From Opitutia bacterium ISCC 52 (GTDB taxonomy: Bacteria; Verrucomicrobiota; Verrucomicrobiia; Opitutales; UBA2995): 64,000 nt of DNA. This document shows, in pieces, positions 8,196 to 18,653 of the stretch (the first letter of the stretch is position 1; the number at the start of each line of letters is the position of its first letter). The notes beneath the pieces are model-generated. The model saw only the letters and a list, made by a program, of their open reading frames with translations. It was not told where the DNA came from and did not search any database. Both the position numbers and the translations under genes were made by a program. The stretch spans positions 3,429,894 through 3,493,893 of the forward strand of contig CP076040.1 in NCBI GenBank assembly GCA_014529675.2. Direction: 5' to 3'.

Positions 8196-9902
8196 TCAAT
8201 TAGCAGAACGGGCTGCTTTCCGCCGTTCGCGTTCGGCCTTTCGAGAGGCTCTGCTATCGGTTTTCTCGTGGGGCAACTTGGCTGCTTCTGGAAGGGTCAC
8301 TGTTTTGCCCTGTATCTTTAAGGTTTTCACAAGCGCAATTTGCTCATCCACCATTCCACCCGGCCGGGCGTTCCCTCCGGGAACAAATTCTCCGAAGGGC
8401 CGACCCATTTTCACAAGGTCCGCTTTTAACAGCCTACGCATGGTATTTAGCTGGGAACGATAGCGAAGATCTTCAGCCAGATTATTAAGTTCCTCCGGAT
8501 CGGCCTTCAGATCGTAAAGCTGGTCGCCATCCCAAAACCCTGGACGATCCGCACCACGCACACCAATACCCAGGCGACCAATATAGGATAAGGCTCTTGG
8601 TAGATTTTCTAAACTGGATTGCTTGATCACTTTGATCTGCTCCTCGGTATAGCGCACGGCTGCGTATTTCCAGCGCTTGGTCGCTACGCCTCGTGCATAG
8701 CCCATTTCCAGATATACATGATCACGGCCTTTTGCGTTTTCTTCCCCACGCAAAATCGGAAGGAAACTGTTTCCATCCATACGATAGGCATCCGGGGCAC
8801 GAACTCCGGCCGCATCGAAAACGGTCGGTACCCAATCCACATTCTGAACCATTTCATGGCTTACCGCGTTGGCAGGAGTTTTTGCAGGCCAGCGAGCAAT
8901 CATTGGAACGTTAAGTCCATCAGCGGCGTAAACGGATCCTTTACCACGTCGTCCATGATCGGGAGCAAACAGGACCAGCGTATTATCATCGATGCCGAGC
9001 TGTTTCAGCTTTTTGAATACAGCACCAATGGCATCGTCTATCCACGCCTCTCCGGCGGTCTTACTATTGGGATCAAACCCGGCTGCCTCTACTTGCGCCA
9101 ACAATTCCTTCCGGGGCGTCATTACTTGGGGTAGTGAAGATAAGCTTCCCTCGCCCGAGGAAGTAGGAAAGTCCATCGACTTGCGCCATGACCCTTCGCC
9201 TCCATGCAGGAGTGTTGTGCAATAATGTAAATAGAACGGACGGCCTTGGTTCTCTTCGATAAATTCCAAAGCCGCTTCCGTGGTCCACTCTGGATTGTGA
9301 TGATTGTAAGGCGAACCCATGTTGCCGCGATAAGTATGCTTTACCCATGAAAATCCCAAACTCCGGATATAGCGGCGCATGATTTGTTCATTGTGAGCAA
9401 ATATCGCCGTTGTTTCCGCGTTATCTTCCAATCCTCGTTTCGGGAACTTTCGAAACCCATCCTTTCCTTGATAGAATTCCGGAAAATCCTCCTCCGACTC
9501 GATGTGGTACTTGCCCACCCAACCGGTTTGATAACCTGCATCGCTTAACACCTTCCCGACATTCATGCCATCGGGCTCAATCGCCAGGTTGAAGCTGGGA
9601 TGACCTTGCTGATCAGGACCACCAACAGCTTCTTCATAATGCTTACTGTAGGAATTCCCTGCGTAACGTCCGGTGGCAAAACTGTAACGAGAGGGTGTGC
9701 ATACTCCACTACTTACATAGGCCTGGGTGAACTTCATCCCTTCTGTCGCCATTCTATCCAGGTGAGGAGTATAAGTGTCACCACCGAAGGCCCCGATACT
9801 GGACCAATCCTGGTCGTCGATGAGTATGAGAATAATATTCGGTCGATCATCGGCTACCACGATCGAACCCAGGAAAAGACTGAGAATTAGAAGATACTTC
9901 AT
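8196..9902 (-). CDS. Secreted S1 sulfatase
   Basis: 568 residues with a signal peptide (MKYLLILSLFLGSIVVA). The metal-binding LILIDDQDW is at about 25-33, and formylglycine Cys68 lies in CTPSRYSFATG. Other sulfatase marks are GKYHIE, FAPDHGRRGKGS and a late LYDLKADPEELNNLA. It ends in a strongly basic tail after residue 545 (RASRKAERERRKAARSAN), which could help bind an acidic polysaccharide or the cell envelope. It is convergent with the esterase (62-base gap) and stands alone on the minus strand. Its substrate is not predictable by eye. Confidence 0.83.
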   Translation of the reverse strand: MKYLLILSLFLGSIVVADDRPNIILILIDDQDWSSIGAFGGDTYTPHLDRMATEGMKFTQAYVSSGVCTPSRYSFATGRYAGNSYSKHYEEAVGGPDQQGHPSFNLAIEPDGMNVGKVLSDAGYQTGWVGKYHIESEEDFPEFYQGKDGFRKFPKRGLEDNAETTAIFAHNEQIMRRYIRSLGFSWVKHTYRGNMGSPYNHHNPEWTTEAALEFIEENQGRPFYLHYCTTLLHGGEGSWRKSMDFPTSSGEGSLSSLPQVMTPRKELLAQVEAAGFDPNSKTAGEAWIDDAIGAVFKKLKQLGIDDNTLVLFAPDHGRRGKGSVYAADGLNVPMIARWPAKTPANAVSHEMVQNVDWVPTVFDAAGVRAPDAYRMDGNSFLPILRGEENAKGRDHVYLEMGYARGVATKRWKYAAVRYTEEQIKVIKQSSLENLPRALSYIGRLGIGVRGADRPGFWDGDQLYDLKADPEELNNLAEDLRYRSQLNTMRRLLKADLVKMGRPFGEFVPGGNARPGGMVDEQIALVKTLKIQGKTVTLPEAAKLPHEKTDSRASRKAERERRKAARSAN

Positions 9903-9948
9903 AGGGATAACTTTATGGATCGGATTCAGTCCACTAAGATCATAGCTA

Positions 9949-10198
9949 TCAAATCAATAAATCGGGGACAATCAAAGGCGTCGGCCGAGCCGAATCGGCG
10001 ACTGCAAAGCCTTGAGGCTCGGGCCTGGCAATCTTTCCCCGCCTGACAATCCCCATGTCATCTTCGGCCTGTGCCTCGTGGAAGGCCGCAGGATCTGGCG
10101 GACACCAGCCGTGCAGTGTGCCCTCGTAGACTTCGATTTCCGCAGTCACACCGGCGGCATCGAAGGTATTGTTCTACATCCTTATTGGTAAGTTCGTC
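9949..10198 (-). pseudogene. Relic of a dienelactone hydrolase C-terminal region
   Basis: The frame 9949-10149 encodes TAEIEVYEGTLHGWCPPD followed by AAFHEAQAE, the histidine-containing end of dienelactone hydrolase family proteins. Upstream, DAAG and TFDAAGV continue the match to 10167 in the same frame. From 10198 to about 10162 a different frame gives DELTNKDVEQYLR, which normally precedes that segment, so there is a frameshift near 10165. The nucleophile region is absent and the last ~35 residues look degenerate. I read this as a decayed 3' fragment. Confidence 0.6.
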
Positions 10199-10344
10199 AC
10201 ACATGGAGAAATCTGGTTCGGGTGGTTATCTCTGATTGAAAATGCAATGTATCCTATTTGATTCGAGGCGAGTGAAAGGAGCAAGGCTAGAGAAGGTTAG
10301 GCTCCTGCGAACGTTACGAGTATTAAAGTAAGTTCTCAAAGTAT

Positions 10345-11088: not shown

Positions 11089-11859
11089 TCACTTCATGGC
11101 GGAAAAGTCAGTCGGAACGATCAACTCGCCTGTCACTCCTCCTTCGATCACCATTCTGCCACCCGCACGCTCTACGGACGCAGCGGCAGCCGTCTTCCAG
11201 TCTTCATCTGCCCGCTGACCTGCGAAGGCCACTTCGCGCCCTTCTTCACTTTCGTGAGCCACAATATAGATTAACGTGCTTGTTCCGCCCTCCTGATCAG
11301 GCATCGGATGGAAATAGGCGATATTCTCAATTCCATGTTTCTCAAATAGACCAATCGTATGGTCTTGAAAACGAGCATCCAGATGACGCCGCATGCCCTC
11401 GTTGCAGATATAGGTCCGAAGCTCGAATAGACGCTCAGGAGAGGCCTGGATTTTCTTGATCGGCATTGAATATCCGGTCGTCTGCATAAACACAGCGTCT
11501 ATCTTTTTGATCAGCCTTCCGTTTACTGACGATGCCTTGGCAGCCGCCTTCCAATCGGGATCGGCTTGAAAGGATTTCCACATCGACTCCTGATCCAGCC
11601 TACTCGGGAAAGCGATAATGTAGATCAACTTGTTCTCCGGATTGTCTTTTGGAACCCAGTATCCGACATTCTCTATGCCGTGCTTCGCAAACAATGCGGT
11701 GGTATGATCCCGGAACCGAGCTACCAAGTCGTCTAGTTTGCCCTCATTCGCATAGTAGGTTCGCAATTCGTAAACACGCGTGTCATGAGCCTGAACAGAC
11801 GTCAAAGAGATGAGATTAAGTAACAGGACGATAAACGAGAAGAGAGAAATGAGTTTCAT
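11089..11859 (-). CDS. Secreted protein with two NIPSNAP domains
   Basis: 256 residues. A signal peptide (to VQA at about residue 24) is followed by two NIPSNAP-type ferredoxin-like domains, at about 27-130 (VYELRTYYANEGKLDDLVAR, ALFAKHGIENVGYW) and 145-250 (LFELRTYICNEG, GLFEKHGIENIAYF). The two halves are clearly a tandem duplication. NIPSNAP proteins are small dimeric alpha-beta barrels; secreted versions are frequent in Verrucomicrobia and their role is not known. It lies 140 bases past the sulfatase stop on the same strand, so it may share a transcript. Confidence 0.82.
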   Translation of the reverse strand: MKLISLFSFIVLLLNLISLTSVQAHDTRVYELRTYYANEGKLDDLVARFRDHTTALFAKHGIENVGYWVPKDNPENKLIYIIAFPSRLDQESMWKSFQADPDWKAAAKASSVNGRLIKKIDAVFMQTTGYSMPIKKIQASPERLFELRTYICNEGMRRHLDARFQDHTIGLFEKHGIENIAYFHPMPDQEGGTSTLIYIVAHESEEGREVAFAGQRADEDWKTAAAASVERAGGRMVIEGGVTGELIVPTDFSAMK

Positions 11860-17941: not shown

Positions 17942-18142
17942 CTAGAGAAGTTTAATTTTGATTGTCACTCGCTGACGATCTCCTCTTGTCAAAAGTACAG
18001 ACCTGACGTCATTTACTCCCTTGAGATCGGCTCCCGCATCCGGGTATCCTGTATTGGCCCTCATCAAGGACGCGAATGGCGCAAGGCCGACGGCTACTCC
18101 GGTGGTTTTGACAAACGATCTGCGGGTGATGCGGTGGTTCAT
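17942..18142 (-). pseudogene. 5' stub of a Tat-exported protein, probably DUF1552
   Basis: 66 residues: NHRITRRSFVKTTGVAVGLA is a twin-arginine signal, then ASLMRANTG and an unrelated-looking tail. DUF1552 proteins begin with this kind of signal and normally follow DUF1592/DUF1585 genes, which fits the fragment just upstream (18192-18653). The rest of the expected ~400-residue protein is missing, so this is a remnant left by deletion. The tail (from about residue 40) may come from another gene. Confidence 0.5.
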
Positions 18143-18191: not shown

Positions 18192-18653
18192 CTACTTTTT
18201 CTGAAAGGCTTCGCTCCGGACCAGCGCATGGATGAAAGCGCTTACTGCATAATCATCTTTCTTCGCAGAACTGACGATTTCGATGGCCAGATCTTCATCG
18301 GTAAATCCAAAGGGCCGACCCAGTGCATACCCGATCAAGTGCTCGACGAAGCCACGGGCGAAATCGTCCTCTCGCTGAGCGACCAAGTCCCGCAGTTCAT
18401 GATAGTCGCCAAACGCGGGTCCCTTATGAAACGCTCCGGAGACATCGATGTCCCAGACCTTCTTCCGTTTGCCCTCGCCAAAGAAGTCTTGGGTCCGCCA
18501 GCGCTTCACCGTGCGAATATAGGCCTCCTGGATTATATCCTCAAAGTCGGGGATCGTGGAGAATCGACTCGCCAGCCAAGCCCTCAAGATCGCCTCATGG
18601 GGGTACAGTTCCTCCAGAAACCAATCGTTTTCTTTTTTATTAAACTGAGGCAT
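18192..18653 (-). pseudogene. Chimera: ECF sigma region 2 joined to a DUF1585 domain
   Basis: A 153-residue open frame. Residues 1-52 (WFLEELYPHEAILRAWLASR, PDFEDIIQEAYIRTVKRW) match the start of ECF sigma factors of PVC bacteria. Residues from about 67 (DVSGAFHKGPAFGDYHELRD, QREDDFARGFVEHLIGYALG, then FIHALVRSEAF) match DUF1585, the C-terminal domain of large DUF1592 proteins. These belong to different proteins; the sigma factor lacks region 4 and the DUF1592 protein lacks its first several hundred residues. In-frame fusion by a deletion is the simplest reading. It is followed by a DUF1552 stub. Whether the fusion is expressed is unknown. Confidence 0.65.

Follow-up and report, generated by a model that had tools for sequence, protein, structure and literature searches.

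An open reading frame joining an ECF sigma factor head to a DUF1592-type tail in Opitutia bacterium ISCC 52, most probably a scar of DNA loss or rearrangement

Gene remnants produced by deletion-fusion, in which the head of one gene runs into the tail of another and the parents are lost, are a general kind of pseudogene in bacteria. The frame described here shares these features and shows no essential difference from them. Two described protein groups are related to its halves. The Fec-type ECF sigma factors, encoded in sigma-FecR-TonB receptor operons, resemble its first ~50 residues with 70% identity, but the frame lacks a complete region 2, region 4 and a FecR neighbour. The DUF1592/DUF1588/DUF1585 proteins of Planctomycetes and Verrucomicrobia, with the domains PSD4, PSCyt3 and PSD2, have as their last domain what forms the tail of the frame (88% identity to an intact member), although everything before the last ~103 residues, including the cytochrome domains PSCyt1 and PSCyt3, is missing. 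In the literature library searched, no paper was found on chimeric pseudogenes of such a type, on a link between an ECF sigma factor and DUF1592, or on DUF1585 treated together with DUF1592.

The frame lies in a stretch of 64,000 nucleotides of the genome, referred to here as the window, and the coordinates of its parts are collected in Table 1. In the ORF listing it appears as a single open frame of 153 codons on the minus strand, with an ATG start and zero internal stops. The original prediction described it as an ECF sigma region 2 fused in frame to a DUF1585 domain. The one open frame and the complete DUF1585 domain were borne out, but region 2 is represented by only about half its length. 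In hmmscan, PSD2/DUF1585 (PF07624) was matched at residues 78-150, far above its cut-off of 25.8 bits, and Sigma70_r2 at residues 25-56 with 17.6 bits, below the cut-off of 24. The frame thus carries the C-terminal DUF1585/PSD2 domain that marks DUF1592-type (PSD/PSCyt) proteins, and lacks the complete region 2 (PF04542 above cut-off) that marks ECF sigma factors. The Pfam scan of the frame detected neither region 4 (PF08281), which is present in the sigma relatives L014 and L129, nor PSCyt1, PSD3, PSD4 or PSCyt3 upstream of PSD2, all of which are found in the tail relative L032. A promoter and terminator scan gave one weak promoter-like match within the frame, on the same strand, and no terminator.

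Table 1. Features of the fused frame and its surroundings (window coordinates)
Feature	Position	Strand	Evidence
Fused open frame, 153 aa	18192..18653	-	ORF listing; Pfam
Head: ECF sigma factor N-terminus (~50 residues), with region 2 shortened and region 4 missing	18501..18653	-	70% identity to the G036 and G053 sigma genes; Sigma70_r2 profile 11-42/71
Junction	18495..18509	-	Tail-side identity to G006 starts at 18500; similarity to sigma fades
Tail: final ~103 codons of a DUF1592-type gene	18192..18500	-	88% to L032 residues 811-913; 85% to G006
DUF1585 (PSD2) domain, whole	18204..18422	-	PF07624, 74.5 bits, profile 2-74/74
Short 3' flank common to G006, mostly not to L030/L032	18175..18191	-	DNA comparison
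Separate 66-aa frame with Tat leader, probably another gene remnant	17942..18142	-	TIGR01409, 22.9 bits

The closest relatives of the head are whole sigma genes within sigma-FecR-TonB receptor operons. An ECF sigma gene in genome G036 (E 6e-22; locus L090), which carries both regions 2 and 4, shares 70% identity with residues 1-56, and a sigma gene in genome G053 (locus L129) shares 70% with residues 2-54. The G053 gene lies upstream of Tct-like transporter genes, and its operon continues into them. Judged by direct comparison with the G036 sigma gene, the derivation of the head from a sigma factor is secure despite the sub-threshold Pfam match. The other sigma genes of the window's own genome match the head at no more than 51%, among the matches listed. 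In a sister genome (G001), a 36-residue sigma head that is 76% identical to that of the window (L092 4837-4944, plus strand) stands ahead of a short frame for a receptor N-terminus, which represents decay of the same sigma type.

For the tail, the closest relatives in GTDB genome contigs all belong to the Opitutales: L030 (88%), L031, which is the G006 locus (86%), and L032 (88%). From residue 49 on, the frame is 85% identical to G006. L032 provides the intact parent type, a protein of 913 aa with PSCyt1, PSD3, PSD5, PSD4, PSCyt3 and PSD2 that is 88% identical over the tail; its gene order is TBDT-DUF1080-DUF1552-DUF1592, on a contig that begins inside the TBDT (TonB-dependent receptor) gene. 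Frames were read in 20 of the 62 GTDB loci: 17 were at least 521 aa long, two were cut by a contig end, and the remaining one was a stub in G006. In the genome itself, the most similar DUF1592 paralogue reaches 46-52% identity, as against 87% for the fragment, and only the fused frame, among 25 DUF1585 matches, sits in a frame shorter than 689 aa, the other 24 being in frames of at least 689 aa. Short DUF1585 frames were also observed in genomes G004, G042, G002 and G003, at contig ends (L146, L147, L151 and L152) or near one (L148); a 251-aa DUF1585 frame in G003 (L149) is interior to its contig.

The fusion itself was not found in any of 52 other relatives' genomes, among the matches listed: 20 of the 53 genomes, own included, gave a match, of which the own genome alone matched across both halves. 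Among eight family genomes searched, own included, no other has the fusion, and it is absent from the 62 GTDB loci, of which 61 match the tail side only and one the head only. The search of viral contigs yielded no relative of the fused frame. The comparison with relatives that the original prediction proposed gave intact parent types and no fusion, and a conserved new two-domain architecture was rejected because the same fusion occurs in one genome only. The expected gene order of sigma, DUF1592 and DUF1552 was not recovered. DUF1552 usually precedes DUF1592 (37 of 62 loci; it follows in 4, and 21 have none within the available DNA), and a sigma gene adjoining the DUF1592 locus was not found in any relative; sigma or FecR genes occur in one of the 62 loci, the one that had been retrieved through its sigma gene.

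At the DNA level, the similarity to the tail in G006 (88.96% over 326 nt) begins at window position 18500, which places the junction at the interval given in Table 1. No clear microhomology with the sigma relatives was seen there, as the tail side reads TGGCGG and the two sigma relatives CATCGT and CACAGG, and the exact junction string had zero matches in the viral contigs. One join in three would be in frame by chance, so that the open frame itself says little.

The same tail has been given another head in G006, which belongs to another genus of the same family. There, a DUF1552-like Tat leader, 77% identical to the L032 DUF1552 protein over the first 22 residues of that protein, continues in frame as PSCyt3 (profile 21-98) and PSD2. 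This stub (L010 1261-1818) resembles the window frame in its tail (85%), in being a short in-frame chimera and in its bacterial family, but differs in its head, in its longer tail piece and in its separate join. The occurrence of the same tail on a different head in a second genus indicates that the join is not conserved. Moreover, ~14 bases past the stop codon are common to the window and G006 tails and absent in L030 and L032, which suggests that the two tails stem from a single ancestral gene that was disrupted in two different ways. Little homology can be claimed at the join in G006 either, where CCCGCG stands on the DUF1592 side, just as in L032, and CCTGCT at that place in the DUF1552 leader of L032. 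In the G006 locus L095, the DUF1552 leader joined in frame to PSCyt3 and PSD2 lies at 9674-10231 (plus strand), and a second DUF1552-leader stub lies upstream (L095 5569-5643), sharing with the first a 50-nt direct repeat at 88%.

With a probability of roughly 0.9, the fused frame is a scar of DNA loss or rearrangement and not a new kind of protein. The parents have intact relatives, the fusion is absent from the sets searched, and no close intact parents are present in this genome. Illegitimate DNA loss or rearrangement would have linked the 5' part of an ECF sigma gene, ending near codon 49, with the 3' end of a DUF1592-type gene, keeping the reading frame by luck; the remainder of the sigma gene, whatever genes lay in between and roughly nine tenths of the DUF1592 gene would have gone. 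Had the fusion arisen after a duplication, the parents would still be present. The predicted product, an incomplete sigma region 2 with no region 4 plus the lone last domain of a larger cytochrome-type protein, most likely does nothing; it is thus probably without function, and the scar would seem to be recent. The original prediction had leaned towards a deletion. Intact parents elsewhere, a unique fusion, the lack of close parents here and a tail that was re-headed support a deletion or rearrangement well, but its argument from a DUF1552 stub right after the frame fails. The short frame downstream has a Tat signal only: neither Pfam nor a comparison of the L032 DUF1552 protein with the window gave a DUF1552 (PF07586) match in it, no relatives of it were found in the 52 other genomes, and it is not evidence for DUF1552. 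The usual order in relatives, with DUF1552 ahead of DUF1592, also speaks against that argument.

Selection on the tail was assessed over 103 shared codons, where pairwise dN/dS was 0.10-0.17 in all six pairs. Private changes, counted as synonymous to nonsynonymous over 102 codons with the junction codon left out, were 5:2 in the window, 5:3 in G006, 11:3 in L032 and 7.5:4.5 in L030; those of the window copy are no more relaxed than those of L032 and L030, with too few changes to decide selection. Before the break, the tail was under constraint. The absence of a stop or frameshift, together with the low dN/dS, fits a young scar and is no proof of lost function.

The open frame, the complete DUF1585 domain and the low dN/dS of the tail would also be expected of a new two-domain protein kept by selection, in which an RNA-polymerase-binding, sigma-derived segment is tied to DUF1585. 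Nevertheless, the fusion occurs in one genome only, region 2 is halved and sub-threshold, the low dN/dS mostly covers the time that the tail spent within the full-length gene, and another lineage bears the same tail on a different head, all of which makes such a protein very improbable. In its boldest form, the product would be made and kept, the sigma segment would touch the core RNA polymerase as a competitor or regulator, DUF1585 would provide a new binding partner, and the family's lineages would repeatedly make new short genes of this head-and-tail kind as operons collapse; we regard this, too, as very improbable. An assembly artefact, with two distant loci wrongly joined in a genome that forms one contig of 4.8 Mb and is 97.8% complete, seems hardly more probable. 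A mis-join should leave the remaining parts of the parents elsewhere in the genome, but neither a close DUF1592 N-terminal part (best 46-52%) nor, among the matches listed, a sigma gene closely resembling the head was found, and like scars occur at other places.

As regards how the scar arose, the loss may have taken place within one locus. In the narrowest version, for which we see about an even chance, one contiguous deletion would have struck an ancestral operon with the order sigma-FecR-TonB receptor-DUF1080-DUF1552-DUF1592. The order needed is given by L032 (TBDT-DUF1080-DUF1552-DUF1592) together with L090 and L129 (sigma-FecR-TBDT). However, the whole series is found on no single contig, the contig of L032 begins within the receptor gene, and the G053 sigma operon runs on into other genes.

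A scar of DNA loss or rearrangement is not an isolated case in this genome. At 3.593 Mb (L093 2839-3256, minus strand), a sigma head of 81 residues meets, out of frame, the C-terminal ~60 residues of a TonB receptor, and this join is a second scar of the same kind. Other irregular genes were also observed: a TonB receptor without its middle and with a later frameshift at 1.945 Mb (L127 5147-5790, plus strand), a truncated sigma head that stops just before a sulfatase gene at 1.217 Mb (L094 3027-3296, plus strand), and a truncated or decayed sigma gene before an anti-sigma-like frame at 2.052 Mb (L125 about 11505-11612, minus strand). The truncated sigma genes at 1.217 Mb and 2.052 Mb have no recognisable last-gene tail. 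Three of the 19 PF04542 matches in the genome, to which the window head does not belong, sit in frames of at most 101 aa; a 138-aa PF04542 frame at 1.264 Mb and a stop-bearing one at 4.646 Mb had no sigma match in a reference-protein search. One further short sigma frame, C52 in G006, was set aside, as it runs into the end of its contig. The peptide SNRG-NPL-Q is common to the translations of two unrelated frames (L092 6341-6511 and L094 1362-1470, both on the plus strand) and looks like a dispersed DNA repeat.

A general rule by which a collapsing operon leaves its first head plus its last tail was considered and not retained, given that only three joins were examined closely and that two in frame is compatible with chance. 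The loss of such operons is not rare in this genome; the cases are few and no rule is claimed. The analysis removes a candidate new domain architecture, for which an in-frame deletion scar is easily mistaken. Taken with the join at 3.593 Mb and the G006 stub, the scar in the window suggests frequent gain and loss of Fec-type sigma operons and of DUF1552-DUF1592 loci in this family of Opitutales.
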